Origin: a virus
DNA: 64,000 nucleotides
Strand: one strand, 5' to 3'
IMG/VR virus record: IMGVR_UViG_3300005841_000036
Span: 1-64,000 of that record
Shown: positions 3,685 through 43,131 of the stretch, in pieces
Layout: every line of letters begins with the position of its first letter
How positions within the stretch are numbered: position 1 is the stretch's first letter
The notes under the pieces: generated by a model
What the model saw: only the letters and a program-made list of their open reading frames with translations
Told to the model about the DNA's origin: nothing
The model's database searches: none
Made by a program: the position numbers and the translations under genes

Positions 3685-4416
3685 ATGACCCGCCCCGCCC
3701 CTCACCCCGATTTCGCCCTGACCGACCGCGTGATCGTGTTCACCTCGGTTTGCGATGAGGACGCCCACCACGTCGACCGCTATCTCTGGGAAATCCAACG
3801 CCTCGAGGTAATGTTTTGCGTGCACTTCGACCGCTGCAGCGAGCGGACCAAGCAGCGATTCTTTTGGTCGCGGAACCTGTTCGGATTCACTGAGCAGGAC
3901 GACCGATCGATCGAGTTCACCGAGCAACACAAGCAGTCGGTTTTCGACCTGGCCGCGACGTCCGGCCGCCCCTGGGCGATGGCCCTCGACATCGACGAGA
4001 CACTCGAGCGCGACGCGGTCTCAAAGCTCCTCGACCTGCCCACGCATGCCGACCTGTTCGACGTGCAATGGCTGAATCTGTGGGGCGATAAGTACTCGAT
4101 CCGATCGGATGGCGCATGGCTGCAAGGGCACCGCGCGAACATCTACAACGTTTCTGGCGGCCGGAAATGGCGGTTCGATCATCCGATCACCAATGGCGCC
4201 AAGCTGGACACGCACGGCCGCGATCCGCTGATCCTCGTTCGCTATCCTCTGGTCGTGCTGCACTGGGGGGCGATCCGGCCCGAGTGGCGACAGTTGAGGA
4301 AAGCCCGCTGGGATCGCGTCTATGGGGCCGCGGTGGGAAACAATCCTTACGGGCACTGGCGAGCCGAACTCGACGAGACCGGCCTCGAGACGATCGAAAA
4401 CACCTATTTGCCGTAG
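3685..4416 (+). CDS. GT2-like glycosyltransferase
   Basis: 243 aa. The N-terminal strand RVIVFTSVCDEDAHHVDRYL and the later AMALDIDETLE (D102-x-D104) fit the nucleotide-binding strand and DxD metal site of GT-A family 2-like enzymes. A second acidic stretch and conserved aromatic C-terminus (VVLHWGAIRPEW) resemble bacterial and phage GT2 relatives. It follows the XRE gene by 3 bp. Donor and acceptor unknown. Confidence 0.6.
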   Translation: MTRPAPHPDFALTDRVIVFTSVCDEDAHHVDRYLWEIQRLEVMFCVHFDRCSERTKQRFFWSRNLFGFTEQDDRSIEFTEQHKQSVFDLAATSGRPWAMALDIDETLERDAVSKLLDLPTHADLFDVQWLNLWGDKYSIRSDGAWLQGHRANIYNVSGGRKWRFDHPITNGAKLDTHGRDPLILVRYPLVVLHWGAIRPEWRQLRKARWDRVYGAAVGNNPYGHWRAELDETGLETIENTYLP

Positions 4417-4917: not shown

Positions 4918-5785
4918 GGCGATCTCCCCTTGGTTTGGCGGCAAGCGCACTATGGCTCCCCTGATCGTCACCGAACTCGGGAAGCATTCGCAGTACTTCG
5001 AGCCATTCTGCGGCTCGATGGCGGTCCTGCTAGCAAAGGCGCCATGCCAAAAGGAAACGGTCAACGACCTGCACGGCGACTTGATCAACCTCGCGCACTG
5101 CTTGCAGGACATCGACCTCGCCGAGCGGCTCTACGATCGCTTGCAGCGCTGCCTAATGTCCGAGGGGCTTGTCGATCGCGCAAAGCACGAGCTCGCGACG
5201 AGCGACCTGTCGCCGGCAGATCGCGCGTACTGGTATTTTCTCTCCTCTTGGATGCGCCGCAACGGAACGGCCGGCACGAAGCGAATCGACTATCAGATCG
5301 CCGTGCGCTGGACTAAGGGTGGCGGGTCGCCGACGGTTCGCTTTCGGAATGCAGTCGAATCGATTCCCTGGTGGCACGAGCGATTGCGGAATGTCGTGAT
5401 CCTGCAGCGCGACGCATTCTCGATAATGAATCGATTCGAGGACGTGAAGCAAGCCGCCCTCTATGTCGACCCTCCCTATTTCGCTGCCTCGAGATCAGGC
5501 TATCGCCAGGGCCCGGGGAGATCGAATAAGTACCTGCACGAACTCGATCACAAATCGACACTGTGGGGGAATGATCACGTCCGGCTGCGCGATGCGCTGG
5601 CTCAGTACAAGAAAGCTCGAGTCGTCGTCAGCTATTACGATTGTCCGGGGATTCGAGATCTGTACGCGGACTGGACGATCATCGAGCATACTCGCCTCAA
5701 GCATATTTCCTCGCAATGCGGGCGAGGCGTCATGGCAAAAGAAGCTCCCGAAATCCTCATCCTGAATGGACCGAGTTACGCATGA
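4907..5785 (+). CDS. dam: D12-class N6-adenine DNA methyltransferase
   Basis: 292 aa, the usual size of the Dam/D12 family. Residues 8-14 (PWFGGKR) are the N-terminal SAM-binding motif, EPFCGSMAVLL at 32-42 is motif I, and DPPYF at 188-192 is the catalytic DPPY motif. It methylates adenine N6 in a short target, commonly GATC, though the target cannot be read from the sequence. In phages such enzymes protect DNA from host restriction. Start ATG 4907 has AGAGGATGC seven bases upstream. Confidence 0.88.
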   Translation: MKVKAISPWFGGKRTMAPLIVTELGKHSQYFEPFCGSMAVLLAKAPCQKETVNDLHGDLINLAHCLQDIDLAERLYDRLQRCLMSEGLVDRAKHELATSDLSPADRAYWYFLSSWMRRNGTAGTKRIDYQIAVRWTKGGGSPTVRFRNAVESIPWWHERLRNVVILQRDAFSIMNRFEDVKQAALYVDPPYFAASRSGYRQGPGRSNKYLHELDHKSTLWGNDHVRLRDALAQYKKARVVVSYYDCPGIRDLYADWTIIEHTRLKHISSQCGRGVMAKEAPEILILNGPSYA

Positions 5786-6882
5786 AACTTGCAATTCTCC
5801 AGCTTGCCGACCAGGGCCCCGCACTCTCGACCGCAGCCATGCTCCGCGCGGTCGGCTATGAGGTGGCGATCCCAAACGACGCGCTCCGCGACATGCTGCA
5901 GGCGATCGGCTGCGATACGGTCCTCTCCCCTCGAGGACTTCACGAAGGGATGGGCTATGACCCGCTCGACCTGCCCGAGGTGGGGATCGAGGCAATGGAT
6001 ACGTGCGACCTTTACCTCGACGTGAAGGGGCACCGCAACTGCCCCAAGATCTGGAAGGTCTGGCCGCGGCTCAAGAATCTGTCGATGTGGGTTCGGTTCA
6101 ACGGCGGCAAGCCCGAACACGTCCGACGGCAGTCGAAAGACCAGTTCGGCAACACCTCGATCGAGGACTGCGGGGATGAGGTCAATCCGGGCCTGCCGAT
6201 CCTCACGCCGAATATGTGGTATCGTGGCGACCCGAAAGCGTATGTCGCCTGGGTGCCGTTCGTCGGCTGGGGTGACTACTTCGATCGCCACGGGCGGACC
6301 GTCGAGGGGTACCACAAATCGCCCGATGGGTTGATCTTCCGCGATCCGCAGCCGGGCGACTTGCTCAAGGGGGACGCTCCGGTTTGCCTGATTCACGGGG
6401 TCGAGGGCTGGGGATACTCCGGGCTGATCGAATGGGTCAGATACCACGGCGTGAAGTGCTACGGATCCCACGGGTCGCCCGATGGGCTTGTCCCTCACTC
6501 GCTGGTCCCCAAGATGCTTTCCCGGGCCCGGTGCCTGGTCTCGCTGCGATCGAACGACTGCCCGGGCTATGCAATGTATGAGGCCGCGGCGGCGGCTTGC
6601 CCGATGATCGTACCGCGGCGGCTGATCCATCGCATGCAAATGGAGGACTGGTTGATCCCTAACGAGACGTGCCTTGTGTTCGACGGGATTGAGCCGGGCC
6701 GGATCGACATCGAGGCTTGCGCGGCCGAGATCAAGGAGGGACTCGATAGCCTTCTCGATCCTGGCGAGAATTCGCGGATCGGGTTCGCCTGCCGGGAAAA
6801 GCTCCGGTCGCTAATGTGGTCGGCGGACCGCGCCGAGGATGTGATGCTTTTTAAAATGTTCATGCAAAGGCACTTTTGGTAG
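5782..6882 (+). CDS. GT4/GT-B-like glycosyltransferase
   Basis: 366 aa, starting with an ATGA overlap. N-terminus MKLAILQLADQGPALST is a Rossmann strand and loop. The C-terminal half has CLVSLRSNDCPGYAMYEAAAAACPMIV, matching the donor-binding E-x7-E region of GT4 enzymes (usually E-A-x-A-x-G-x-P). The middle (GWGDYFDRHGRTVEGYHKSPDG) is unusual. One of the glycan genes; acceptor unknown. Confidence 0.55.
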   Translation: MKLAILQLADQGPALSTAAMLRAVGYEVAIPNDALRDMLQAIGCDTVLSPRGLHEGMGYDPLDLPEVGIEAMDTCDLYLDVKGHRNCPKIWKVWPRLKNLSMWVRFNGGKPEHVRRQSKDQFGNTSIEDCGDEVNPGLPILTPNMWYRGDPKAYVAWVPFVGWGDYFDRHGRTVEGYHKSPDGLIFRDPQPGDLLKGDAPVCLIHGVEGWGYSGLIEWVRYHGVKCYGSHGSPDGLVPHSLVPKMLSRARCLVSLRSNDCPGYAMYEAAAAACPMIVPRRLIHRMQMEDWLIPNETCLVFDGIEPGRIDIEACAAEIKEGLDSLLDPGENSRIGFACREKLRSLMWSADRAEDVMLFKMFMQRHFW

Positions 6883-6891
6883 GAGAATGCG

Positions 6892-7107
6892 ATGCGGTTC
6901 CTGATTCTGGCTTGCTTGCTGGTCGGGTGCGCGAGCAAGCCCCCCATCCCCACCAGCGGCCAAAGGCTTACCTACACCGAGGAGCTCGACCTCGGGGCGG
7001 GCCCAAAAATCCGGATCATCAAGGATTCGGAGACTGGTCGCGAGTTCCTGATGGGGAGTCATAGCGGCGGCGTTTCAATCTGCGAGATCAAGCCGAAGGG
7101 CGAATAA
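6892..7107 (+). CDS. Small lipoprotein
   Basis: 71 aa. Residues 1-13 form a short lipoprotein signal peptide ending in the lipobox LVGC (cysteine 13). The mature part is a small beta-rich domain. AGGAGAATGCG directly precedes the ATG. It would be lipid-anchored in a membrane after infection. Not obviously a spanin, as it lies far from the lysis genes; it could be a superinfection or surface-modification protein. Confidence 0.65.
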   Translation: MRFLILACLLVGCASKPPIPTSGQRLTYTEELDLGAGPKIRIIKDSETGREFLMGSHSGGVSICEIKPKGE

Positions 7108-7117
7108 GGAGGATGCG

Positions 7118-7762
7118 ATGCAAGGAACGGATTTCGATACTCTCTTCCGGTCTCTCCCTGCCGACGGCTGGCTCTATGAGGATGAGGCCCGACTCCTCCT
7201 CGCCCACGCCCGGGACACCGATGGCCCGATTCTCGAGGTGGGAAGCTACTGCGGCCGGTCGACCGTGTTACTGGCTTCCCTCGGGCGCAGCGTCCACTCG
7301 GTCGACCCGTTCGACGGGTTTCATTCCGACCTCACCGGCGACGAGATCCAGGAACGATTCTGGGGCAACCTGCAGGCCCGCGGGATCCGGAACGTGATTC
7401 AGCATCGGATCCACGTCGAGCGCTGGCCGATCTTCGGCTGCGGGTTCGCCTTCCTCGATGGGGATCATTCCTTCGAGGGAACGCAACGGCAGATCGACGC
7501 CGCGGTTCGATCGCTCATCTTGGGCCGCGGCGATCTGCTGGCCGTGCACGACTACGCCGAAGACGGCGGCGGGGCACTGGTCGCCAAGGCGGTCGACGAT
7601 GACAAGCGGATCGAGGTGATCGGCCGGGCAAGTCGGCTTGTGATCTGCCGAATGGATCGAGATCGGGCGATGACCGAGGGCCTCGCCCGGTGGGTCGAGG
7701 GCCGGCAGGAAAAAGGCGACTGGGTGTTTACTTCTTCTTCTCAAGAATGGGACGGCGCGTAA
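7118..7762 (+). CDS. Class I SAM-dependent methyltransferase (Methyltransf_24-like)
   Basis: 214 aa. LEVGSYCGRSTVLLA (about 39-53) is the glycine-rich SAM-binding motif I and AFLDGDHSFEG (111-121) the post-motif strand typical of the Methyltransf_24 group, which methylates sugars or small molecules in glycan and antibiotic clusters. Strong Shine-Dalgarno AAGGAGGATGCG directly before ATG 7118. Between a lipoprotein and a sugar dehydrogenase, so a sugar substrate is likely. Confidence 0.72.
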   Translation: MQGTDFDTLFRSLPADGWLYEDEARLLLAHARDTDGPILEVGSYCGRSTVLLASLGRSVHSVDPFDGFHSDLTGDEIQERFWGNLQARGIRNVIQHRIHVERWPIFGCGFAFLDGDHSFEGTQRQIDAAVRSLILGRGDLLAVHDYAEDGGGALVAKAVDDDKRIEVIGRASRLVICRMDRDRAMTEGLARWVEGRQEKGDWVFTSSSQEWDGA

Positions 7763-7784: not shown

Positions 7785-8783
7785 ATGCGTTCAATTGTGA
7801 TCGGACTGGGTGAGGTCGGGCGGTCGCTGGCGAGCGTACTGGCCGAGGGGAAGCGGGAGGAGGTCTTTTCGCACGACAAGGTCGGCGGAACGATCGAGGC
7901 CGGCGAGCAGCGGCTGGCACTCATTGCGACCGAGAAGCCGGTCGGGGTGATCCATATCTGCTTTCCCTACTCGCCCGAGTTTGTCGACGAGGCTTGCAGG
8001 TATATCCGGCTGACGGACGCCCCGCTGGTGATCATCCACTCGACGGTCCCGGTCGGAACGACCAGGCGGATCCAGGAGCGGCACCACGGCGCAAACGTGG
8101 TCCATTCCCCGATTCATGGCCAGCATCCGCACCTCGCGCGAGGGATCCGGACGTTTTTGAAGTACGTCGGCGGAACGAACGAGGCCGCGGTCGAGCAGGC
8201 CTTGGGCTACTTCATGCGGCACGGGATCAAGGCTTACCCGGTGAGCTCGCCCGAGGCTAGCGAAGTGTCCAAGCTGCTTTGCACGCTGCAATATGGATGG
8301 CAGATCGTGATCTGCAAAGAGATCGCCGCGATCTGCGAGCGCTACGGGGTGCCGTTCGACGAGGCCTATGCCGGTTGGAATCGGGAATATAACCGGGCCT
8401 ATCAGGAACTCCACCCGACGGCGCCGGATGAGTTCAAAAGGTCGGTCGGGGTCGACGTTCGCCGGCCCATCCTCCACCCGACGCCCGGGCCGATCGGCGG
8501 GCATTGCGTGATCCCAAATGCGAACCTCCTCGAGGACTTTTGGCTGGCGGCGACGCTGATCGAGAGGAATCGGGATTACGCGGGCAGGAGCAGCCAAACG
8601 CCAATCCCTGCAGGCCACTTCCGTTGTGACAACTGCAAGCGACTCTCCCCGCTAGGCGATGATGGCGCGGCTATTGCTGAGATGAAAACTAATTTCGGCA
8701 ACCTGCCAATCGAAGATCGTGCGATGGTCTGTGACGAATGCTATGCAACCATGCGGCCAAACACCTCGGGGAAAAGCCAATGA
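7785..8783 (+). CDS. UDP-glucose/GDP-mannose dehydrogenase-like protein with C-terminal zinc ribbon
   Basis: 332 aa. GLGEVG at 7-12 is the NAD-binding loop; STVPVGTT at 86-93, lysine 163 in SEVSKLL and cysteine 241 in GPIGGHCVIP match the active-site motifs of nucleotide-sugar dehydrogenases, which oxidise the sugar C6 alcohol to a carboxylate. Family members are usually 400-450 aa; here the C-terminal UDP-binding domain is missing and residues 281-319 hold two CxxC pairs (CDNC, CDEC). Start 7785 is preferred over TTG 7764 because AAAGGAGG lies between them. Confidence 0.7.
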   Translation: MRSIVIGLGEVGRSLASVLAEGKREEVFSHDKVGGTIEAGEQRLALIATEKPVGVIHICFPYSPEFVDEACRYIRLTDAPLVIIHSTVPVGTTRRIQERHHGANVVHSPIHGQHPHLARGIRTFLKYVGGTNEAAVEQALGYFMRHGIKAYPVSSPEASEVSKLLCTLQYGWQIVICKEIAAICERYGVPFDEAYAGWNREYNRAYQELHPTAPDEFKRSVGVDVRRPILHPTPGPIGGHCVIPNANLLEDFWLAATLIERNRDYAGRSSQTPIPAGHFRCDNCKRLSPLGDDGAAIAEMKTNFGNLPIEDRAMVCDECYATMRPNTSGKSQ

Positions 8784-9733
8784 AAATCGGACTCATCGGC
8801 CGAGCCGACCTCTCGGGCCTCGGCTACATGACGCGGGATTTCTGCGACCACCTTCCGGTCGAGAAAGCCTTGATCGTCTCGCGCGAGGGGCGCGGCCCGA
8901 ACTCCCTCGACCAAATCCTCGCCCGGCATCGCATGATGACGAGCAACACGTTCCGGCAAGAGGATATCGAATTCCTGTTTGACGGAATCGATGTGCTGGT
9001 CGGATTCGAGACGTTCTACCATCCGGACGTGATCCCCGAGGCAGTCGCCCGCGGGATCAAAGTGGCGATGTTCCCTATGTGGGAATGCTCGCCGCCCGAG
9101 GTCTGCGCGGCCGACTACCTGTTTTGCGTTACGGATCGCGAGCGGGCCCGCTTCCCCTATCGGGCAGATACGATCCGGGTTGACTGGCCGATGGAACCCC
9201 CGCCCGGCTGGAAGCAACAGGCCAGGCAGCGACCGTTGCGAGTGGTCGCCTGCGCGGGATCCGGGGGGCTGCACGACCGGAACAACGTCGAAAGCCTCAA
9301 GGCGCTTCGACAGGCGGCCGACGCCGGTCGGGCGGATGGATGGACGTTCGATTTGCGGGAGTTTTCGACCGATCGCTCGAGGTGGGCGCAGTACGCCAAT
9401 GCCGATCTGTTCGTGCACCTGCAGGCGTTCCACGGGCTATCCCTCCCGCTTCTCGAGGCCGCGGCGTGCGGCGTGCCTTGCGTGGTTCTCGACATCCCGG
9501 GCTTTCGTGAGGAATATACCTCGTCGTGCCGGGTGGGAGTTGGGGCGATGTTCGATCGCGAAATGATGGGCGAGCGGGTGACGTTCGCGAGGCCTGACCC
9601 GTCCGGGCTGATCCGGACGATCAACCGCCTGGCGTATACCGTCCAGATTCCGCCGGCACCGCGGCCGGGGACCTGGGCAGAGTTCGTGGAGATCTGGACC
9701 AAGCACGTCGGCCCTCTGGAGTCCGCACAATGA
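8780..9733 (+). CDS. GT4-family glycosyltransferase
   Basis: 317 aa from ATG 8780 (ATGA overlap). N-terminus MKIGLIGRADLSGLG, C-terminal donor site NADLFVHLQAFHGLSLPLLEAAACGVPCVV with the E-x7-E spacing typical of GT4 retaining enzymes, followed by DIPGFREE. No membrane segment, so it acts in the cytoplasm or at the membrane face. Coupled to the aminotransferase downstream (ATGA). Confidence 0.75.
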   Translation: MKIGLIGRADLSGLGYMTRDFCDHLPVEKALIVSREGRGPNSLDQILARHRMMTSNTFRQEDIEFLFDGIDVLVGFETFYHPDVIPEAVARGIKVAMFPMWECSPPEVCAADYLFCVTDRERARFPYRADTIRVDWPMEPPPGWKQQARQRPLRVVACAGSGGLHDRNNVESLKALRQAADAGRADGWTFDLREFSTDRSRWAQYANADLFVHLQAFHGLSLPLLEAAACGVPCVVLDIPGFREEYTSSCRVGVGAMFDREMMGERVTFARPDPSGLIRTINRLAYTVQIPPAPRPGTWAEFVEIWTKHVGPLESAQ

Positions 9734-18552: not shown

Positions 18553-18888
18553 ATGGGGATTGGCGAGTTCACGCAGCGAGAGCGGGAGGTGGCTGACTTG
18601 GTTGCGCGGGGGATGCACAACAAACAGATCGGTCGCGAACTGAACATCAGCGTCGAGACGGTCAAGGAACACGTCCACAATTGCTTGGTTGCCGGGGAGT
18701 TCGCCGGTCGGACCGAGCTCGCCGTTTTCTGGTCGCTGGCGCAGATCAAAAACATCCTCGACGGGTTCGAGGCCGGCGTTCCTCCTCAGCGGGTGATTCA
18801 AGGGGCGATGGACGCGATCTATCGCCGCATGGATGCGATCCGGCCGCCGGCGGTCGAGGACGGCGAGGTGAAGCATGCCGCGGGCTAA
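18553..18888 (+). CDS. LuxR/GerE-type helix-turn-helix protein
   Basis: 111 aa. FTQREREVADLVARGMHNKQIGRELNISVETVKEHVHNCL (about 6-45) is a complete GerE HTH with the ReVxxLvaxG and N-K-x-I-A-x-x-L-x-I-S-x-x-T-V-K-x-H pattern. No receiver domain is present. It is the second gene after the divergent control region, so it may be the regulator of that region. The end overlaps the exonuclease by 14 bp. Confidence 0.8.
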   Translation: MGIGEFTQREREVADLVARGMHNKQIGRELNISVETVKEHVHNCLVAGEFAGRTELAVFWSLAQIKNILDGFEAGVPPQRVIQGAMDAIYRRMDAIRPPAVEDGEVKHAAG

Positions 18889-19900
18889 GAAGGGGGCGGC
18901 CGGTGCCACGCCGACAAGTGCGATCGCGCCGGCCGCCCGGGATCCGTGGGAGGACTCTGATTTCGCCCGGCTGGTCCTCGACTCCGCGGGCCTCACCGCG
19001 AGCAGCTTGGCCGACCTGACGATCATCCCGCGGGTCCGGCCGCAGCGTATGCGGATCCCGCCCGGGCGCCCGGGCTATATCGATCTCGAGACGATTCCCG
19101 ATCTCGAGCGGCTCCCTCAGTTCGGATTGCCGGAACTCCCGCCGGAACTTCCGCCGATGCCGATCGAGGCTGCCCCGAATCAGATCGTCCTGGCGACTCA
19201 GCCGGGCGAGGCGGTGATCGCGGCAATGGCCGGCATCAATCCGCCCGATGAGTGGTTTACCGGGATGGAGCTCGCCGAGCGGGCCGGCAAGAATCGCAAG
19301 GGGGTCCTCGGTGAGATCGACCGGATCCGCGCGGTGCGCGCGGCCGGCGGCAAGGGGGCGATCGCCGCCCAGGAACGAATCAAGCTGCTGAGCGTAACGC
19401 CAGAATACTGCAAAATCGCGGCCCTGGGGTGGGCGCAGATGGAAGAGGCCCCGCAGGCGATGGTCCTCGGGGAAGAGTACCGCGAGGACGCCGGGCGGCT
19501 TGTCACCGAGGCCGAGATCCTCGAGCAATTTTGGTGGGTGGTCGAGAAGTGTTCGCCCATCGTCGGATACAACCTCCTCCATTTCGATCTGCCGGTGGTG
19601 TTCATCCGGTCGGCGATTCTGGGGGTCGAGCCGACGAAGCGCCTCGACTTGCGGACGTGGTCCTCGGACGTGGTCGACCTCTTCAAGGTGCGATGGCCGA
19701 CGTTTGGATCCGGTGGGATGAAGCTCAAAGACCTCGCCCGGGTCCTGGGGATCGAGGTGCCATGCCCCGACGTCGACGGTAGCAACGTGGCCGCGCTGAT
19801 GGCGGCCGGTGAGTTCGGCAAGGTCGCCGAGTACGTCTGCAGCGACGTGGTAGTCGAGCGGGAAGTGCACCGATTCTATTCAGGATTCTTCTGCCCATGA
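18875..19900 (+). CDS. DEDDy 3'-5' exonuclease (PolB-exonuclease-like)
   Basis: 341 aa. Acidic motifs in order: YIDLETIPD (Exo I, DxE, about 68-76), IVGYNLLHFDLPVVF (Exo II, N-x3-F-D) and YVCSDVVVEREV (Exo III, YxxxD). A 130-residue insert separates Exo I from Exo II. Such exonucleases, cut off from a polymerase, appear in phage recombination modules beside RecT, where they can supply single-stranded 3' or 5' ends. ATGA overlap downstream. Confidence 0.75.
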   Translation: MPRAKKGAAGATPTSAIAPAARDPWEDSDFARLVLDSAGLTASSLADLTIIPRVRPQRMRIPPGRPGYIDLETIPDLERLPQFGLPELPPELPPMPIEAAPNQIVLATQPGEAVIAAMAGINPPDEWFTGMELAERAGKNRKGVLGEIDRIRAVRAAGGKGAIAAQERIKLLSVTPEYCKIAALGWAQMEEAPQAMVLGEEYREDAGRLVTEAEILEQFWWVVEKCSPIVGYNLLHFDLPVVFIRSAILGVEPTKRLDLRTWSSDVVDLFKVRWPTFGSGGMKLKDLARVLGIEVPCPDVDGSNVAALMAAGEFGKVAEYVCSDVVVEREVHRFYSGFFCP

Positions 19901-20103: not shown

Positions 20104-20306
20104 GAATTTACACATTCGACGCCAAGGATCCGCTGCACGACAACGGGCGACATCTGGCGATCATTCGCGCCGGAACGCTCAAGGCGGCGGAGAAGAAATT
20201 GGCACGCCTCACCGAAAGCAAGCGACCAGGTCGCCCGCTTGATTGGCGGCTGCAAGTGGATCAAGCCGACTATGCAGACATCGTTTTCGAGGACATCGAA
20301 AGCTAA
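20100..20306 (+). CDS. Small hypothetical protein
   Basis: 68 aa from ATG 20100 (ATGA). MRIYTFDAKDPLH then a basic helix (GTLKAAEKKLARLTESKRPGR) and an acidic end (DIVFEDIES). Not recognised. It sits between the PIATAP protein and RecT in the early operon. Confidence 0.55.
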   Translation: MRIYTFDAKDPLHDNGRHLAIIRAGTLKAAEKKLARLTESKRPGRPLDWRLQVDQADYADIVFEDIES

Positions 20307-21763
20307 TGCTCCTCTGCGCCTTTTCGAAATCCGAAACGCTCGCCTCGCATATCCTCGAGGTTTGCCCGCTCGCGCTGAGTTCGGCAACGGCGAAGAAATG
20401 CCCGTGCAAAAAGCGGCTCTATCATGTCGGCCCGTCTGATCTGCGGGTCCTGTCCTGCACGTTCCCTAACGACTGGAAAGGAAATCCGGTCCGGAATCCC
20501 GAGGCCCTCGCCGCCAAGCTCCGCGAGAAGGTGAAGGCGGCCAGGCCCTCCAAAGCAACGAAGCAAGCGCGGGAATTGCTCCCGCCCCTGCAACCACTCC
20601 CGACAACTCTCGAATTTGAGGAGGAACGAATGGCAGACGATGAAGAAGCGGCCGAGGACAACGCCGGCGGCGAGATTGTGGTCGACCTCAAGAATCAAAT
20701 CCCGGTCGGATCACTGACGCTCCGCGGGGACGTCTACGATCGCATTAGTGACCCGATGGAGTTCGTGAAGAACTTCGGCACGGCGATCTATGCGTCGAAA
20801 ATGTTCGGCTGCCACAATCCGCAGCAGGGCATGGTCTTTGCGATGGCCTGCCTGGCCGAGAAGTCCAACCCGATCGCGATCAAGCGCCGATATCACATCA
20901 TCGGGGGGAACCTCTCAATGCGGTCCGATGCGATGCTCGCCGAGTTCCGCATGAACCACGGGGGGACTCACGAGATCATCGAGCGCACGCCCGAGGCGGC
21001 CGAGATCGAACTGCGGAAGGGAAGCCAGAAGCCCTACCGGCTGCGGTTTACCTGGGCCGAGGCCGAGGCCGAGCCGTTCGTTTGGGGCAAGGATGAGAAG
21101 GGCAAGAAGATCATCAAAACGAACTACGCCACGCCGCGGGCTCGCATGCAAATGCTCTGGGCGAGGGTGGCATCGGACGCGGTCCGTTCGTACTGCCCCG
21201 AGGTCAACGCGGGAGTTTACACGCCCGAGGAAATGGGCGGTCCGCTGGCCGAGTATGAGGAGGCCGAGTTCGAGGTGAAGGCCGCGGCGCCGGTCGATCC
21301 GGTCGCCCACGCCAAGCCCAAGCCCGAGAAGGCGGCCGACAAGCCCTCGCCGTCGGCAGCGACCGAGGAGGCCCCTTTCCGCGAAGCGATCAAAGACGAC
21401 ATCGCCAAGATGCAGGCGCAGAATGCCGCGGCGGCTGCCAGCAAGCCCGCGGAGTCGATCGCCTCGAGCGGGAAGGGATCCGGCAAGGTCTCCCGCGAAA
21501 CGCTGATCGAGATCAAGAAGATCAAGGACGCGCTGCAGTACGGCGACGACACTTGGAAAAAGATCCTCGACAAACTCGGCGTCGCCAGTGCGAAGGACCT
21601 CGACCAGGATGGCGGCGACCGATTGCTCGCCTATCTCGGGAAACGGCAGCACGACGTCGAAGCCGCACGCAAGCAGGCGGCCGGCGTCGACGAGCTCTCG
21701 ACCTGGGCGAACGGGCAACTCAGCCCAAACCAGAAGCCCGGCGAGGCTACCCCGGGCAAGTAG
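20306..21763 (+). CDS. recT: RecT-family single-strand annealing recombinase
   Basis: 485 aa from ATG 20306 (TAATG overlap); a second strong start at 20630 (GAGGAGGAACGA before ATG) gives 377 aa and is probably used. The core, from about residue 150, has YASKMFG, MACLAEKSNPIAIKRRYHIIGG, MRSDAMLAEFRMNHGG and TPRARMQMLWARVASDAVR, the pattern of RecT/Bet annealases. A lysine/alanine/proline linker and a helical C-terminal domain follow. It would pair complementary single strands after exonuclease resection. The N-terminal 108 residues include a CPCKKR patch and are not typical. Confidence 0.7.
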   Translation: MLLCAFSKSETLASHILEVCPLALSSATAKKCPCKKRLYHVGPSDLRVLSCTFPNDWKGNPVRNPEALAAKLREKVKAARPSKATKQARELLPPLQPLPTTLEFEEERMADDEEAAEDNAGGEIVVDLKNQIPVGSLTLRGDVYDRISDPMEFVKNFGTAIYASKMFGCHNPQQGMVFAMACLAEKSNPIAIKRRYHIIGGNLSMRSDAMLAEFRMNHGGTHEIIERTPEAAEIELRKGSQKPYRLRFTWAEAEAEPFVWGKDEKGKKIIKTNYATPRARMQMLWARVASDAVRSYCPEVNAGVYTPEEMGGPLAEYEEAEFEVKAAAPVDPVAHAKPKPEKAADKPSPSAATEEAPFREAIKDDIAKMQAQNAAAAASKPAESIASSGKGSGKVSRETLIEIKKIKDALQYGDDTWKKILDKLGVASAKDLDQDGGDRLLAYLGKRQHDVEAARKQAAGVDELSTWANGQLSPNQKPGEATPGK

Positions 21764-21926: not shown

Positions 21927-22715
21927 ATGGCCAGGAAGCAAAAAGACGCCGAGGATGACGGATGGGGCGGCACGGTCGAAGGCGACGAGATGAATTTTGA
22001 CATGGACTCGACCGGCGTTTCCGGCGAGGACCTCGGCAGCGGCGAGGGCCAGGTCGAGAAAGAGGGGTGGTATCACTGGGAGATCGGCGACGTTTCCCCC
22101 GAGCTCGACAAGGTGAAGGATAACGGCAAGTTTACGACGCCGAACATCCGTTTTGACATGATCGTTTTGGAGACGGTCGAGGGCCAGTCGCCCGCGAATT
22201 CTCGTCTCTTTCATCGGATGTACCTCTGCAAGGTCGACAAGGACTCGGGCGACGTTTCGGAGATCTCCGAGGGATCGAAGAAAAACGCCTTGCGGTTCGG
22301 AATCGGCCTCGGGCTGCTGGCGGAAAAGGAGGACGGGACGATCGTGGTCGCCGAGACGCTCAAGGACGCCAAGACCGGCGCCGTGATCGCTGAGGCAGGA
22401 TCGACCAAGATTCCCACGAAGCTCTGGTTGTTCGCGAAGGGCCGACAGTGCGTCTCGAAAGTCGCCCTCGAGGCCAGCGAAAATCCGGCCTACAAAGCGG
22501 CCTATAAGATTCCGTTTTCGCGGGTCTACCCGGTCGACCACCCGAGCGTTGCCGACGTTCCCAAGAACGCCGAAATGCTCGAGCTCATCGGCAAGGGCGA
22601 CTTGGTCAAGAAGCCGGCGGCGAAGGGGGCGAAGGCCCCGGCCAAGAAGGCGGCGCCCGGCAAGCCAGCGGCGGCTGCGCAGTCGGCCGCGGTAGATGAT
22701 CTGGCCGATCTGTAG
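21927..22715 (+). CDS. Probable ssDNA-binding protein (DUF669-like)
   Basis: 262 aa. An acidic N-terminus (AEDDGWGGTVEGDE), a beta-rich central domain (GWYHWEIGDVSPE ... FDMIVLETVEGQSPANSRLFHRMYL), an Ala-Lys-Pro linker (KKPAAKGAKAPAKKAA) and an acidic, hydrophobic tail (VDDLADL). A folded OB-like domain, flexible linker and acidic tip are what SSB-type proteins use. Phage DUF669 proteins sit next to RecT in the same way. Confidence 0.5.
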   Translation: MARKQKDAEDDGWGGTVEGDEMNFDMDSTGVSGEDLGSGEGQVEKEGWYHWEIGDVSPELDKVKDNGKFTTPNIRFDMIVLETVEGQSPANSRLFHRMYLCKVDKDSGDVSEISEGSKKNALRFGIGLGLLAEKEDGTIVVAETLKDAKTGAVIAEAGSTKIPTKLWLFAKGRQCVSKVALEASENPAYKAAYKIPFSRVYPVDHPSVADVPKNAEMLELIGKGDLVKKPAAKGAKAPAKKAAPGKPAAAAQSAAVDDLADL

Positions 22716-22938: not shown

Positions 22939-23403
22939 ATGAAAGATCTGCCATATGCCAGCGCTACGAGCGGCGATCGCGCCCTCGGCGAGGCTCAGTC
23001 GATCCTTTCGAGGTTCGGCTGCACGCAATTCGGGATCATGCACGACACGGAACGCGGCGAGTTGCGACTGCAGTTCGTGCATCAGGGCCGCACGGTCGAT
23101 TTCCGGGCAAGCTGGAAAGGCTATGCCGCGGCGTGGCTCAAGGCCAAGCCCTACACCCACCGCATGCGAGGCAGCAGGCAGGCATACGAGGCCAAGGCGA
23201 TCGAGCAGGCCAAGATCTCGGTTTGCTCCGTGCTGCGAGATCTGGTCAAAGCGCAGGTGACGGCGATCGAGGCCGGGATCCTCTCGTTTGAGGGCGCTTT
23301 CCTCGGTCAGATCTTGCTGGCTAGCGGCCAGAGCGTTTCCGAGTACGTGCAGGCGGCGGCGATCATCCCGCCGGCGGAAACGAAGAAGCTCGAGGCGAAG
23401 TAA
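22939..23403 (+). CDS. Conserved-looking phage protein of unknown function
   Basis: 154 aa from ATG 22939, preceded by CAGGGATGCGCC. MKDLPYASATSGDRALGEAQSILSRFGC, then RTVDFRASWKGYAAAWLKAKP and LSFEGAFLGQILLASGQSV. From memory this resembles an uncharacterised protein common in phage recombination modules; I cannot confirm it. One-base overlap with the RecD2-like gene. Confidence 0.55.
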   Translation: MKDLPYASATSGDRALGEAQSILSRFGCTQFGIMHDTERGELRLQFVHQGRTVDFRASWKGYAAAWLKAKPYTHRMRGSRQAYEAKAIEQAKISVCSVLRDLVKAQVTAIEAGILSFEGAFLGQILLASGQSVSEYVQAAAIIPPAETKKLEAK

Positions 23404-24458
23404 TGGCCAAAAAATCCGACATCATCGGAACGATCGATCGGATCAAGTGGCGGGCGCCCGATTCAAACTACGTGATCGCCGGCCTCGAGGACGGAACGAC
23501 CATCGTCGGCAACGCGGCCGAGGGCGATCTCTTCCCTGGCATCACCTACCAATTTTTCGGGGACTGGGATGAGAATGCAAAATTCGGCCGGCAGTTCAAG
23601 TTCGTGCAGTTGGTCAAGCAGGAACCGCACTCGCGACACGGCGTTGTCTGCTACCTCGCACGCTACGCGCCCGGAGTCGGGAACGGGATCGCGGCGCAGC
23701 TGTTCGACGCATTCGGGTCAACTGCGGTGCAGGTCCTCCGAACGGATCCCGAACAAGCCGCGCGGCGGTGTCCGCGGCTGACGATCGAGAAAGCAAAGCT
23801 CGCATCGCAAGCCCTCAAGCAGCTGCTGCGGCTCGAGGATACAAAGATCGATCTAACGAATCTATTCGCCGGCCGCGGGTTCAATACGACCTTGGTCGAC
23901 GCGGTGGTCGCAAAGTGGGGCATCCTGGCGCCGGAGCGCGTTCGGCGCGATCCATTCTCGCTGCTGGTGCACGGATTTGCCTCTTGCGGGTTCGCCCGGT
24001 GCGATCGCCTCTATGCCGACCTCGGCCTGCCACAGGAAAAGATCAAGCGACAAGTGATCTGCCTTTGGCATGTTTTGCGGGAGGAATCAAACGGCAGCAC
24101 TTGGCACGACTCCCGCGCGGTGGTCCGGAAGATGGCCGAGGCGGTCGGCGGCGTGACAACCAGGCCCGGCCGGGCGATCAAGGTCGGGGTGCGAGCGGGC
24201 TGGATCGCGGTGAAGGTCGACGCCGAGGGCCGGCGATGGCTGGCCGAGGGTCAGAAGGCGAAAAACGAGAAGTTCCTGGCGGAACGGATTTCGGAACTCA
24301 TCACAAACGCAGGAGGCGAAAATGCTGGTCCTATCGCGCAAAGAGGGAGAGAAGATCATCGTGGGGAGCGGCGAGAACACGGTCAAAATTACGGTGACGC
24401 TGATCAAAGGGAATCGAGTCAAAATCGGCGTCGAGGCCCCGCGCGGAATCCCGATTGA
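23403..24458 (+). CDS. RecD2-like helicase, N-terminal half (OB and helix-hairpin-helix domains)
   Basis: 351 aa. Residues 1-75 match the N-terminal OB-like domain of RecD2 (IIGTIDRIKWRAPDSNYVIAGL, FGDWDENAKFGRQFKFV). SRHGVVCYLARYAPGVGNGIAAQLFDAFG and RDPFSLLVHGFASCGFARCDRLY are the two helix-hairpin-helix stretches that precede the motor in RecD2. The last 46 residues (from about 306) are low-complexity and overlap csrA in another frame. The frame is the same as that of the motor ORF at 24492, separated by a single TGA at 24456-24458. Confidence 0.75.
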   Translation: MAKKSDIIGTIDRIKWRAPDSNYVIAGLEDGTTIVGNAAEGDLFPGITYQFFGDWDENAKFGRQFKFVQLVKQEPHSRHGVVCYLARYAPGVGNGIAAQLFDAFGSTAVQVLRTDPEQAARRCPRLTIEKAKLASQALKQLLRLEDTKIDLTNLFAGRGFNTTLVDAVVAKWGILAPERVRRDPFSLLVHGFASCGFARCDRLYADLGLPQEKIKRQVICLWHVLREESNGSTWHDSRAVVRKMAEAVGGVTTRPGRAIKVGVRAGWIAVKVDAEGRRWLAEGQKAKNEKFLAERISELITNAGGENAGPIAQRGREDHRGERREHGQNYGDADQRESSQNRRRGPARNPD

Positions 24459-24495
24459 TCGCGGGGAAGTCGCCGGGCGAAAGGTGGGGCAATGA
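24322..24495 (+). CDS. csrA: Carbon storage regulator CsrA
   Basis: 57 aa, usual CsrA size. MLVLSRKEGEKIIVG starts the protein, VTLIKGNRVKIGVEAPRGIPIDR follows. Leucine 4 and arginine 47 align with the RNA-binding L4 and R44 of E. coli CsrA. AGGAGG at 24311-24316 is a strong ribosome site. CsrA is a dimeric RNA-binding protein that binds GGA in hairpin loops, often at ribosome sites, to block or protect mRNA. Here it sits inside a gene pair for a split RecD2 helicase, its stop overlapping the motor start (ATGA). No FliW antagonist is seen. Confidence 0.92.
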   Translation: MLVLSRKEGEKIIVGSGENTVKITVTLIKGNRVKIGVEAPRGIPIDRGEVAGRKVGQ

Positions 24496-25802
24496 TCTGG
24501 CCGGATCCCTCGAGCCTCACCGCTTCATCACCTCACCAGCAAGAGACGTGGGGCCGCGCCTCGAGCGCGGGCCGAGTCGCGATCCTCACCGGGGGCCCTG
24601 GGACTGGCAAGACGACCACGGCGGCCGAGGTCCTCAAGCAGTGCGCGAAAACGGTCGGGCTGTCGAATGTCGCCGTCTGCAGTCCGTTCGGCAAAGCCGC
24701 GGTGAAGATCACGGCGAGCATGAACGCCGCGGGCCTCGAGTGCGAGGCGACGACCATTCACCGATTGCTTGGCGTGACTCGCAACGGGCACGACAAAGGC
24801 GGGTGGGGGTTCCGGTTCAACGCCGGCAATCCCCTGCCCTATCGGGTCCTGGCGATCGAGGAGTCCTCGACCCTCGGCGTCGACCTGGGGGCAAGCCTCT
24901 TCTCGGCGATCCACCCGGGCACCCACGTTTTACTTCTCGGGGATGACGGGCAACTGCCACCGGTCGAGCATGGCGCCGTTTTGCGGGATCTCAAGGCGGC
25001 CGGGCTACCGCACGGGGAACTCCTCGAGATCTGGCGGAACGACGGCGACATCGTGAAGGCCTGCCAGGCGATCCGCGCGGGTCGACCGTGGCGAGCATCG
25101 CGCGAGATCAACATTCCGGCCGGGCAAAACCTACGACACTGCGAGACGGCGAAAGTTCCGGTCGCACTGCGGCATCTCGAGAGATTCCTGGCGACCGCCC
25201 CGACGGGGATTGATCCCATCTGGGACGTCCAGGTCCTTTGCACGGTCAACGAAAAGTCGCCCCTCGGGCGGAAGGATCTAAACGCACGGCTCCGCGAGTT
25301 CCTCAACTCCGCGGGCCGGCGGATCGACAAGCATCCTTTCCGGGTGGGCGACAAGGTGATCTGCCTATCGAATTCGATGCTCCCTCTCGACTCTGGCGAC
25401 GGGCTGCAGTTCGAGGACGATGGAGCGATCGAGGAATTCGTCGCGAACGGCGAGATCGGCCGAGTGACGTACATAGAGCCGAAATTATCGATCGTGAAGT
25501 TCGACGCGCCGGCGCGGACCGTGCGAGTCGTTGGCGGCTGGCATGACTCGTTCGATCTGGCCTACGCGATCACCACGCACAAGAGCCAGGGGAGCCAATG
25601 GCCAGTCGTAATCTACATGAGCGACGACTATCCCAGCGCGAGGCGAACATCCTCGAGGCAGCTTGTCTATACGGCACTTTCCCGAGCGGAAAAACTGTGC
25701 GTTACCATCGGCCGGAAATCGACGATCGATTTGGACTGCAAGCGCGACGCGCTGGTCGGTCGAAAGACGTTCCTTGCCGAGATGATCGAGAGGGCCGCAT
25801 GA
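24492..25802 (+). CDS. RecD2-like helicase, motor half
   Basis: 436 aa. GGPGTGKTTT (34-43) is Walker A, VLAIEESSTLG (119-129) is motif II with EE in place of DE, LLLGDDGQLPPVEHGAVLRDL (about 146-166) is motif III, and HKSQGSQWPVVI plus YTALSRAEKL are motifs V and VI of superfamily 1B helicases. The first 30 residues are all that remains before the motor, so the N-terminal domains must come from the separate protein upstream. It unwinds DNA 5' to 3' in known RecD2 enzymes. Confidence 0.85.
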   Translation: MIWPDPSSLTASSPHQQETWGRASSAGRVAILTGGPGTGKTTTAAEVLKQCAKTVGLSNVAVCSPFGKAAVKITASMNAAGLECEATTIHRLLGVTRNGHDKGGWGFRFNAGNPLPYRVLAIEESSTLGVDLGASLFSAIHPGTHVLLLGDDGQLPPVEHGAVLRDLKAAGLPHGELLEIWRNDGDIVKACQAIRAGRPWRASREINIPAGQNLRHCETAKVPVALRHLERFLATAPTGIDPIWDVQVLCTVNEKSPLGRKDLNARLREFLNSAGRRIDKHPFRVGDKVICLSNSMLPLDSGDGLQFEDDGAIEEFVANGEIGRVTYIEPKLSIVKFDAPARTVRVVGGWHDSFDLAYAITTHKSQGSQWPVVIYMSDDYPSARRTSSRQLVYTALSRAEKLCVTIGRKSTIDLDCKRDALVGRKTFLAEMIERAA

Positions 25803-26119: not shown

Positions 26120-26343
26120 CCTCCCCCGTTAAATGCTACTGCTGCGGGCGATTCGTCTCGCGCAAGAAGTCCTTTTCGACCGTCACTGGCGAGCGTATCT
26201 GCCGACGGTGCGAGTACGCTTTCACCCGACCTCGAGGGAAACTGCCCCGCGCCCCCCTCGGGAAAATCGTTCACTATCCGCAGATCAAGATCTCACCGAT
26301 TCCGCGCCCCGAGGATGCCAATGGTACTCGACTCGAAGATTGA
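26116..26343 (+). CDS. Small zinc-ribbon protein
   Basis: 75 aa. CYCCGRFVSRKKSFSTVTGERICRRCEY gives a CxxC-x20-CxxC ribbon in the first half, then a proline-rich basic tail. Likely a nucleic-acid-binding accessory to the recombination genes. It overlaps the ERCC4 gene by 23 bp, carrying that gene's GAGGATGCCA start motif. Confidence 0.55.
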   Translation: MTSPVKCYCCGRFVSRKKSFSTVTGERICRRCEYAFTRPRGKLPRAPLGKIVHYPQIKISPIPRPEDANGTRLED

Positions 26344-27193
26344 AAAGGTCAAGTTGCACTTTGGGATCGCTTCCCTCGATGACTGGCGCGACGTTACCCC
26401 CGCCTGGATCCTGAACCTCGAGGGGATCGGCCAGGTGACTCTCGACCATATTCGCCTCTATCTGGCTTCGCATAATATCTCGCTGCGCGGCGACCAAACG
26501 CCGGATTTCTGGCGGGCGCACCTCGGCGAGGCGAGGATCTGCCATCAGATGGCCGACGAGGATCGATACGACGTCGTTAATTTTACGATCGTTATCGACA
26601 AGCGAGAGCAGCATCCCTTTACGTTCCAGGGCATCGAATCCGACGCCAAGGGATCCCGCCGGCCGATGTTCATTCCGACCAAGCCGGGGACGCTTCCCTC
26701 GGGCGACTACTCGGTCGCCGGCCTCGAGCATGCGGTCGCCGTGGAGCGGAAAAGCCTGGTCGACCTATACGGGACGATCGGCGCCGGGCGGGATCGGTTC
26801 GTCCGCGAGCTCGAGCGGCTCGACCAGATGGAATTCGCCGCGGTGGTGATCGAGGCAGGATGGCCGGCGATCATCGGCAACCCGCCCCCCTCTTCCAAGG
26901 TCTCGCCAAAGGTGATTTATCGATCGATCATCGCCTGGGGGCAGCGATTCCCGCGGGTGCACTGGTGGCCATGCCCGCATAGGACGTTCGCCGAGCGAAC
27001 TACTTTCCGGATTCTGCAGCGGTTTTGGACGGACGTGATGGACGGAAAGCGATCATCCGGCCCGGCCGCGAGGTTCGACGGCGACATCGACAAGATTCCG
27101 GATGATAGCATTCCGACCAGTCCGGCCGAGGAAAGCGCGGAACGGTCAGAAGGCGAGCAGAATTCCCTTGCGGACGATGGTGAATTCTTCTAA
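26321..27193 (+). CDS. ERCC4-domain (XPF-like) nuclease
   Basis: 290 aa from ATG 26321, preceded by GAGGATGCCA. An N-terminal helix-hairpin-helix-like segment (TPAWILNLEGIGQVTLDHI) precedes the nuclease: VIDKREQHPF (D93), GDYSVAG (128-134) and AVERKSLVDLY with the ERK-x3-D signature (142-148). XPF nucleases cut branched DNA. In a phage with RecT and RecD2 it could resolve recombination or replication intermediates. Acidic C-terminal tail. Confidence 0.78.
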   Translation: MVLDSKIEKVKLHFGIASLDDWRDVTPAWILNLEGIGQVTLDHIRLYLASHNISLRGDQTPDFWRAHLGEARICHQMADEDRYDVVNFTIVIDKREQHPFTFQGIESDAKGSRRPMFIPTKPGTLPSGDYSVAGLEHAVAVERKSLVDLYGTIGAGRDRFVRELERLDQMEFAAVVIEAGWPAIIGNPPPSSKVSPKVIYRSIIAWGQRFPRVHWWPCPHRTFAERTTFRILQRFWTDVMDGKRSSGPAARFDGDIDKIPDDSIPTSPAEESAERSEGEQNSLADDGEFF

Positions 27194-31044: not shown

Positions 31045-31322
31045 GTCGCGGCGACGTCCTAGTCGCCGTGCTGGTCCGCGGGCACGAGCGATATTTGTGC
31101 GTATACGAGGAGGGCAGGGAGTGGGATGCCCTTGCCTTCCTCGTTCGGTGGGCGGCGAATCCGGAGTTGAGTTTTTCATGGTACGACGCTGCGATCATGC
31201 GACAAAAGATCTGCGGCGAGTTGAAGGGAAAGCGGGCAAGGTTGCGTGGAGAGATTGTCCAGGTGAAGGATGCAAAAGGAAAATTCAAAAAGAAAGGAGG
31301 GTCGAATCATGGGGCAGAATAG
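31041..31322 (+). CDS. Small hypothetical protein
   Basis: 93 aa, ATGA junction with the gene before. N-terminal beta segment (GDVLVAVLVRGHERYLCVYEEG), basic C-terminus (KGKRARLRGEIVQVKDAKGKFKKKGG). Not recognised. Its last 14 bp overlap the start of the DUF5131 frame. Confidence 0.5.
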   Translation: MSRGDVLVAVLVRGHERYLCVYEEGREWDALAFLVRWAANPELSFSWYDAAIMRQKICGELKGKRARLRGEIVQVKDAKGKFKKKGGSNHGAE

Positions 31323-32341
31323 TGCCATCGCATGGTGCGACCATACATTTCAACCCGTGGATTGGCTGCACGAAGGTTAGCGCCGGCTGCGCAAACTGCT
31401 ATGCCGAAGCGTCGATGGATCTGCGGTTGAAGAAAGCGAAGTGGGGCGACAGCGGGACTCGAGTTCGGACATCGGCGAGCAATTGGGGCGATCCGATCAA
31501 GTGGGATCGCTGGGCACGCGATGGGGTTTGCCTCTACTGCAGCGGGCGAGGATTCAACGCGACCAAGGGGAAGGGCGAGAAGCCCGACAAGCTCGAGCAT
31601 TGCGATTTTTGCGACGGCCGCGGCTATGTCGATCCGTATCGAGCTCGAGTTTTCTGTGCGAGCCTTGCCGACGTGTTCGAGGATCGCCGAGACCTGGATC
31701 CGATCCGCCTTGACCTCTTCGCGCTGATCGACCAGTGCCAGAACCTCGACTGGCTACTGCTGACGAAGCGGCCGGAATGCGTCGCCCGGTTGATGCCGGA
31801 ATATCACCCGTGCGGGCGCCCGGGATGCGAGGTCTTGCACGTCCGGCCAAATGTCTGGCTGGGGACGTCAGTTGAGAACCAGGCTTACGCGGATGAGCGG
31901 ATCCCGCATTTGCTGCGAGTGCCCGCGGCGGTTCGATTCTTGTCTGTCGAGCCGCTGCTGGGGCCGATCACAATTCACGCTCTGCTGAATCATGTCCGCG
32001 GGGGAATGACTGGTGACGGGCGTTGCTGCTGCTGCGGTGAATCTATCCGGAGTACTGCGGCGGCGTTCCACTTCGCCAACTGCCCCAGGCAAAAATCACT
32101 GATCGACTGGGTGATCGTCGGCGGCGAGAGCGGCCCGAACGCCCGGCCGTGCGATATTGCATGGATCCGTGACATTCGCAACCAGTGCAAAGATGCCGGT
32201 GTCGCTTGCTTTGTGAAACAACTGGGGGCGGCCTGCCGACTCGGCGAGGCTGAGTTTCCGCTGTCCGATCCGAAGGGCGGCGACCAGTCAGAATGGCCAA
32301 TGGATTTACTCATTCGTCAACTCCCCGAGGTGGCCCGATGA
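31309..32341 (+). pseudogene. DUF5131 (gp37/gp68-like) protein interrupted by a frameshift
   Basis: ATG 31309, preceded by GGAGG, encodes MGQNSAIAWCDHTF, the usual N-terminus of this phage family, but then runs out of frame and stops at 31380. One base later in phase the family signature continues: FNPWIGCTKVSAGCANCYAEAS and onward to 32341. Removing one T of the TTT at 31348-31350 joins them. The rest is intact (LLTKRP, WLGTSVENQAYADERIPHLL, IVGGESGPNARP, CFVKQLG). Either a real mutation, a sequencing error, or a programmed shift. The family carries a cysteine motif like radical SAM enzymes; its role is unknown. Confidence 0.7.
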
Positions 32342-41685: not shown

Positions 41686-43131
41686 ATGGCCAGACGAAAA
41701 AAAGCGGTGCCGGTTGGTGCGTCTCACCCGAGTTCCCTTCCGGGTGCAGGCGAATCCCCTCCGGCCGGCGCCGCTCCTTCTCGCACGTTCCGCGATCGCA
41801 TCGTCGAGTTCACTCGGGTCCGCGCGGGCGATCTCAAGCCCTCGCCCCGCAACTGGCGGACTCACCCCAAGCATCAGCGCGACGCGCTCCGCGGGATCCT
41901 GACCGAGGTCGGCTACGTTGACGCACTAATGGCTCGCCGCCTGGCCGACGGCTCCCTCGAGTTGGTCGACGGGCATCTGCGCGCCGAGGACAATCCCGAT
42001 CAGGAACTGCCCGTGCTGATCGTCGACCTCGACGACGCCGAAGCGGCTAAGGTACTGGCCACGTTCGATCCCCTGGCCGATCTGGCGATCGCCGACTCGA
42101 AGCTCCTCGAGCAGCTGCTGGCCGAGGTCAATCCGACCGTCGAAAACGCCGAACTGCAGAAGATGCTCGAGTACCTTGCGAGGGATCACCAGCTATTGCC
42201 GTGCGTGACTGCCGGCACTGCCGACGATGAACCTCCCCCGCCGCTCAAGGCCAGGACTCGCCCGGGCGATCTCTACACCCTGGGCAACCATCGGATCCTC
42301 TGCGGCGACTCGACCTCTCCCGTCGACGTCGATCGCCTATTTGCCGGCCAGCTAGCCGCCCTCCTCTTCACCTCGCCCCCCTACTCCAATCGCCGGAATT
42401 ACACGAAGGAATCGCAGGAATCCAGCCGGACTTGGCTCGAACTGATGGAGGGCGTTTTTGGCCAGCGCGGGATCCTTACCGATGACGCGCAGGTCCTGGT
42501 TAATCTCGGCCTGATTCACGAACAGGGCGAATACGTTCCCTATTGGGATCCGTGGATTCAGTGGATGCGTTCCGAGGGGTGGAAGGCGTTCGGGTGGTAC
42601 GTTTGGGATCGAATCACGCCGACATTCCGGGCAAACGATGGCCGATTGCAGATGTCTCATGAGTGGGTTTTTCACTTCAATAAAAAACCAGTGCACTGCG
42701 CTGAATGGGTCGAGTGCTTGCATGCTGGTGAGGTTAGGGCTGGTGGTGCGCAACGGACGTTGGGCGGCAACGTCAAGCCTCAATCGACTCCCGGCCCGAT
42801 CAAGTCCCATCGGCCGCCCGAGTCCGTGATCCGCGTTCAACGCGTTTGCGACAACTCCGATCCGATCATTAATCACCACCCCGCGCGGTTCCCGGTCGCC
42901 CTTCCCGTTCACATCATGCGATCCTGGCCCGAGGGGATTGTCTATGAGCCGTTTTGCGGATCGGGGTCGACGATCCTGGCCGCCGAGCAACTCGGCCGAA
43001 CGTGCTATGCGATGGAACTGGCGCCCGCCTATGTCGATATCATCGTCTATCGCTGGGAGAAGATGACCGGCAAGAAAGCGACCCTCGAGCGCGCCGCCAA
43101 GTCGGCCAGGCGAACCAAGTCCGCCAAGTAA
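41686..43131 (+). CDS. ParB-domain fused beta-class DNA methyltransferase
   Basis: 481 aa. Residues about 40-130 are a ParB/Srx-like domain (LELVDGHLRAE). The methyltransferase follows with motif IV (FTSPPYSN, about 226-233) before motif I (YEPFCGSGSTILAAEQLGR, about 419-437), the beta-class order; SPPY fits N4-cytosine or N6-adenine specificity. Phage ParB-MTase fusions protect DNA and are often near packaging genes, as here. One base after the FkbM-like gene. Confidence 0.85.
   Translation: MARRKKAVPVGASHPSSLPGAGESPPAGAAPSRTFRDRIVEFTRVRAGDLKPSPRNWRTHPKHQRDALRGILTEVGYVDALMARRLADGSLELVDGHLRAEDNPDQELPVLIVDLDDAEAAKVLATFDPLADLAIADSKLLEQLLAEVNPTVENAELQKMLEYLARDHQLLPCVTAGTADDEPPPPLKARTRPGDLYTLGNHRILCGDSTSPVDVDRLFAGQLAALLFTSPPYSNRRNYTKESQESSRTWLELMEGVFGQRGILTDDAQVLVNLGLIHEQGEYVPYWDPWIQWMRSEGWKAFGWYVWDRITPTFRANDGRLQMSHEWVFHFNKKPVHCAEWVECLHAGEVRAGGAQRTLGGNVKPQSTPGPIKSHRPPESVIRVQRVCDNSDPIINHHPARFPVALPVHIMRSWPEGIVYEPFCGSGSTILAAEQLGRTCYAMELAPAYVDIIVYRWEKMTGKKATLERAAKSARRTKSAK

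Follow-up and report, generated by a model that had tools for sequence, protein, structure and literature searches.

How did a csrA gene come to lie inside the gene for a phage RecD2 helicase, and was it csrA that divided the helicase? The locus sits in what we call the window, the whole stretch of 64,000 nucleotides analysed here, which forms part of a 68,397-bp virus record and, judging from the terminase, portal and head proteins encoded elsewhere in it, belongs to a tailed phage. An earlier sequence-only reading held that csrA had been inserted at the domain linker of recD2 without a change of phase, that translation of both halves is coupled to it, and that CsrA dosage would track the recombination operon. 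The features that bear on these claims are collected in Table 1.

Table 1. Features of the recombination operon in the window, with the evidence for each assignment
Feature	Position	Strand	Evidence
LuxR/GerE-type HTH gene at operon head	18553-18888	+	Pfam GerE, E 1e-12
PolB-type 3'-5' exonuclease, first conserved gene of the operon	18875-19900	+	Pfam DNA_pol_B_exo2, E 6e-11; syntenic in most relatives
RecT-like ssDNA annealing protein	20243-21763	+	PHROG 561, E 2e-12; syntenic
Conserved operon protein, no assigned function	21927-22715	+	similar gene at this position in L033, L114, L115, L035 and others
RecD2 N-half, OB + HHH	ORF 23403-24458; folded part, residues 1-306, to ~24320	+	Pfam; AlphaFold2; Foldseek
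csrA ribosome-binding site AGGAGG	24311-24316	+	sequence; five bases 5' of ATG
csrA in RecD2 interdomain linker	24322-24495	+	Pfam CsrA; frame-specific third-position GC; PDB CsrA matches
RecD2 motor, SF1B helicase	24492-25802	+	Pfam AAA_30, UvrD_C_2; AlphaFold2; Foldseek; starts MIWP, the conserved linker motif
ERCC4-type nuclease, downstream in operon	26315-27193	+	Pfam ERCC4, E 5e-7; syntenic

The 57-residue csrA product matches the Pfam CsrA family at 64.4 bits against a curated cut-off of 27 (E 9e-18), and sequence comparison with the PDB also retrieves solved CsrA structures, the best at E 9e-8. The RNA-binding residues L4 and R47 (the equivalent of E. coli Arg44) are invariant in an eight-sequence alignment and line up with solved CsrA proteins; from its family membership, the protein is predicted to form a dimer and to bind GGA hairpins. 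No second CsrA match was found in the 68,397-bp record. The csrA stop codon, TGA at 24493-24495, overlaps the motor ATG at 24492 by 4 bp (ATGA), while a scan of the + strand of the region found no promoter- or terminator-like site. The complete CsrA between two helicase halves, with its conserved residues, AGGAGG, start codon and stop overlap, was thus recovered just as the sequence-only reading had described it, as was the arrangement on which the proposed coupling depends.

That reading also identified both flanking ORFs correctly as RecD2. The upstream ORF matches OB_YrrC (E 9e-11) and HHH_RecD2 (E 2e-11) in Pfam, and the downstream ORF matches AAA_30 (E 3e-27) and UvrD_C_2 (E 1e-14). AlphaFold2 models of the two halves, built from 20 relatives, have mean pLDDT values of 87 (N-half) and 88.7 (motor), and Foldseek places the predicted N-half with RecD2 structure 3gp8 (E 9e-5) and the motor, which has the RecD2 fold, with 3gpl (E 6e-35). 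Walker A, QGS and YTA-SR motifs are present in the motor, for which 5'-3' helicase activity is predicted. Motif II (24855-24870) reads EESST where relatives mostly have DExSM, and on account of this substitution the ATPase may be weakened.

Where exactly does the break fall? When the whole N-terminal ORF is modelled, pLDDT is ~95 up to residue 306 and ~47 beyond it, and a single base separates the end of the folded part from the csrA start codon. The tail that follows (residues 307-351, 45 codons) is unconserved and predicted to be disordered, with a third-position GC of 0.33-0.44 in the frame of the N-half against ~0.72 in that of csrA. Because the drop in pLDDT and the switch in GC frame coincide, we take the real N-half to comprise ~306 residues and the tail to be csrA read out of frame. 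The ORF singled out by the earlier reading is therefore the OB/HHH half, in the same frame as the motor and separated from it by the TGA at 24456-24458, except that its last 45 codons are not helicase sequence. Along the sequence of 3e1s, the HHH match extends to about residue 129 and that of the motor begins at 186, which puts the break within the interdomain region of RecD2. One-piece relatives have a last helix, then a short linker, then the WP motif, as in L119 ('...VVDKLSNTEKT LWPDVADIEGISDHQ'); the window has the end of the helix ('...ERISELITNAGGEN'), then csrA, then 'MIWPDPSS', with all conserved residues retained. OB/HHH and motor, which make up one polypeptide by the usual definition of RecD2, are encoded here by two separate ORFs.

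To place this arrangement among relatives, phage RecD2 loci were gathered by profile scans of IMG/VR and scored with HMMs for each half, giving 168 distinct loci. Scans of viral contigs with either window half as a lone protein returned no relative; alignment with one of the loci, L017, was required. RecD2 is fused in 126 of the 168 loci and split in 42, in a scoring that misses pieces shorter than 35 residues, still counts near-identical loci and, for nine loci of the 124 in the initial scoring, counts as splits long N/motor overlaps that may be frameshift errors. All 42 splits lie at the linker between N-half and motor, and none inside either. Among loci from cellular genomes, 79 of 80 are fused; the remaining one is truncated, its N domain not having been found on a short contig. 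Mapped on a 119-row tree of the motor, the fused state has to change nine times or more, and well-supported branches force four of these changes, so that splitting or rejoining is recurrent. Two observations on RecD2 architecture also emerged from these loci: L130 and L154 each carry two tandem RecD2-type genes, and L039 (1599-5090) has an intein-like insertion in Walker A, where TGSPGTGK is interrupted and resumes after HN with TYT.

The closest relative of the window is L033 (IMGVR_UViG_3300048597_000624), its sister in the motor tree (SH-aLRT 98). L033 RecD2 is also split, its halves differing in frame, unlike those of the window; a one-piece RecD2 is found in L114, which follows in the tree, and in L037 (820 aa), L047 (811 aa) and others. 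Even this closest pair, window and L033, is only ~50% identical, leaving the junction without a near relative.

The contents of the gap vary widely. Many splits have no insert, the halves being joined via ATGA or GTGA overlaps (L040, L045, L048, L065, L112). The L033 gap holds a 421-residue Cas12f-like protein (PADLOC, E 9e-13) followed by seven to nine repeats of ~37 nt at a spacing of mostly 72-73 bp, all inside the RecD2 linker (5496-7485); comparison of the array spacers with the fetched loci gave no convincing target. Other gaps contain HNH endonucleases (L044, L142), an MT-A70 protein (L137), a PRA-PH/MazG-like protein (L054), a Dam-like methyltransferase with a weak MUG113 match (L338), an ORF with a weak GIY-YIG match (L035), a member of PHROG 5931, which has no assigned function (L333), or small ORFs without assigned function (L115, L125, L332 and others). 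No split locus other than the window has csrA in its gap. The linker itself differs in some loci, with an extra cysteine-rich, zinc-ribbon-like segment (CxxC ... YGPTC) in L034 (~8731-9000) and L332 (~4107-4280).

Within this phage group csrA is a resident gene, in most cases located 5' of the same recombination operon. It occurs in 15 of the 26 loci nearest the window, against none of the 142 other phage RecD2 loci, and of these 15 the window alone has it in the linker. In 11 loci it lies on the same strand beside or 5' of the exonuclease gene, either adjoining this operon-opening gene (L033, L037, L114, L124, L336, L337) or further upstream (L329, L333, L334, L335, L338). It is immediately 5' of the RecD2 N-half in L115, upstream with no exonuclease match between in L118, and on the opposite strand in L116. 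The place that csrA takes in the six loci of the adjoining type is occupied in the window by the HTH gene. L114 and L124 are among the divergent CsrA homologues, and a CsrA tree of 48 columns has too low a resolution to separate relocation within the operon from separate acquisition of the window csrA. As csrA in relatives is already at or upstream of the operon head, its co-expression with the recombination genes does not depend on its position in RecD2; that CsrA dosage should track the operon is reasonable, but it would be equally so with csrA at the operon head.

Elsewhere in the operon, the conserved product encoded between the RecT-like gene and recD2 gave no Pfam or PHROG match. Two further genes of the window may be recorded: a DUF5131 protein (31097-32341, E 8e-65), of which another phage, L002, has a homologue directly after csrA, and a DNA methyltransferase fused to a ParB-like N-terminal domain (41686-43131; PHROG 498, E 6e-58).

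We consider it probable that the two-polypeptide RecD2 arose by fission at the domain linker, and that this linker is a cargo site of which csrA is the present occupant. The gene would have broken in the flexible stretch between the last helix on the HHH side and the conserved WP motif, apparently the sole site at which breaks in phage RecD2 are repeatedly tolerated, and the OB/HHH and motor subunits would assemble without a covalent link, as suggested by analogy with the NrdA of phage Aeh1, split by mobE. The break could then give additional genes a safe place to land within an early recombination operon, a place filled here by csrA, which elsewhere in the group usually lies upstream of that operon. 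Ribosomes, having completed the N-half, would initiate on csrA at the strong ribosome-binding site of that gene and then re-initiate at the ATGA overlap, yielding the motor. CsrA and motor would thus be produced at the same time, early in infection, at a stage when CsrA could retune translation in the host or of the phage. The anatomy of the locus, the overlaps, the stand-alone predicted folds, the recurrence of splits and the variety of cargo are direct observations; reassembly, coupling and the function of CsrA are inferred.

The sequence-only reading had it that recD2 was one intact piece until csrA inserted itself and so caused the split, a course of events that we regard as unlikely, although parts of the case for it stand. 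csrA does lie exactly at the linker between OB/HHH and motor, one-piece relatives exist and include L114, next in the tree, and the interruption is clean at this site in that all conserved residues are kept and the halves share a frame. The shared frame carries little weight, however, since a length divisible by three holds for any complete gene; two halves would match by chance in one case out of three, and those of L033 do not. Moreover, insert-free splits are common in other phages and the sister phage is already split around other cargo, so of the two orders of events that are allowed, csrA first is not the favoured one. The reading had looked to related phages for intact RecD2 and for csrA at the junction, and had named relatives that lack csrA but already have separate halves, in a different arrangement, as evidence against itself: intact genes proved common, csrA at the junction is confined to the window, and L033 is split without csrA at that place. 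With unrelated cargo in relatives' linkers, the split is independent of csrA and may predate it here.

Other accounts fare less well. csrA might serve chiefly as an autogenous switch, CsrA binding its own ribosome-binding site and thereby limiting the motor through coupling. The site does contain GGA, and the end of csrA overlaps the start of the motor gene, but GGA is present in every AGGAGG, no GGA hairpin loop is evident in the csrA start region, folding there is no better than in shuffles (z = 0.4), and relatives' csrA is not beside the motor; we hold this to be improbable. Gene decay, in which the divided RecD2 would no longer work and its pseudogene would collect csrA and other genes, would account for the altered motif II and is known to befall phage genes. 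It is nonetheless very improbable when both halves are full length and confidently folded with their other motifs kept, breaks are confined to the linker in all 42 cases, and many retain start/stop overlaps. Introns and inteins likewise occur in phage genes, as the Walker A insertion of L039 recalls, but splicing of the insert to restore a single protein can scarcely be credited: the 174-bp insert is a complete csrA with no match to an intron family, the motor starts right at the WP linker, neither half carries an intein extension, and the N-terminal tail is out-of-frame csrA. An intron or split intein at the window break was accordingly rejected. Nor does the window recD2 fit the pattern of a gene split by a free-standing homing endonuclease encoded in the break: of the ORFs there, csrA alone matches a family.

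Fission at the linker with csrA as occupant thus remains our preferred account, and the question arises of how far it extends. In related viruses the same gap is often broken and quite different genes lie inside it, so that the linker looks like a reusable docking site in a DNA-repair gene. A broader proposal, which we put forward tentatively and would not yet call probable, is that the RecD2 linker is a general, recurrent dock for phage cargo, with the helicase repeatedly becoming a two-subunit enzyme and early host-takeover or defence genes (csrA, the Cas12f-like gene with its repeats, methyltransferases, nucleases) coupled translationally to the motor. If so, CsrA output in this phage would be proportional to that of the helicase motor. 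Until now, selfish endonucleases have been the main explanation for split phage enzymes, whereas here one helicase linker is broken in a quarter of sampled phage loci and holds many kinds of cargo, among them a regulator and a Cas12f-like gene accompanied by repeats. Phage RecD2 thereby offers a natural collection of two-part helicases for probing the poorly understood OB/HHH part, and its linker a place to seek new phage accessory genes.

Split phage enzymes (PMC3653736), phage csrA (PMC9144972) and nuclease-driven insertion near core genes (PMC10448857) are each already known. In the open-access papers searched we found neither a split phage RecD2, nor RecD2, a split, a phage and CsrA together, nor a regulator gene inside a split helicase or the RecD2 linker as a recurrent dock.

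Compared with the RecD2 of Deinococcus radiodurans (PDB 3e1s, 3gp8, 3gpl) and YrrC, the window enzyme has the same order of OB, HHH and SF1B motor, with matching sequence and predicted folds, but it differs from the D. radiodurans enzyme in consisting of two polypeptides, in having csrA in the linker and in reading EE rather than DE in motif II. The closest parallel for the division is the NrdA of Aeromonas phage Aeh1, whose gene has likewise been divided in two by an inserted one, mobE, and whose halves still cooperate; other split phage ribonucleotide reductases are known (PMC3653736). The Aeh1 insert is a homing endonuclease, whereas that of the window is a regulator without known mobility, and relatives of the window hold many unrelated cargoes in the linker. 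Single csrA homologues, called moron genes, have been described in Burkholderia phage JC1 and Lessieviruses (PMC9144972), where they lie near capsid genes and not, as here, in a recombination operon and inside a helicase gene. Finally, homing-endonuclease islands treat essential or core phage genes as safe harbours for inserted genes (PMC10448857), and the HNH or GIY-YIG-like ORFs of some RecD2 relatives are reminiscent of them; the window insert differs in being without a nuclease and in occupying an interdomain linker within one gene.
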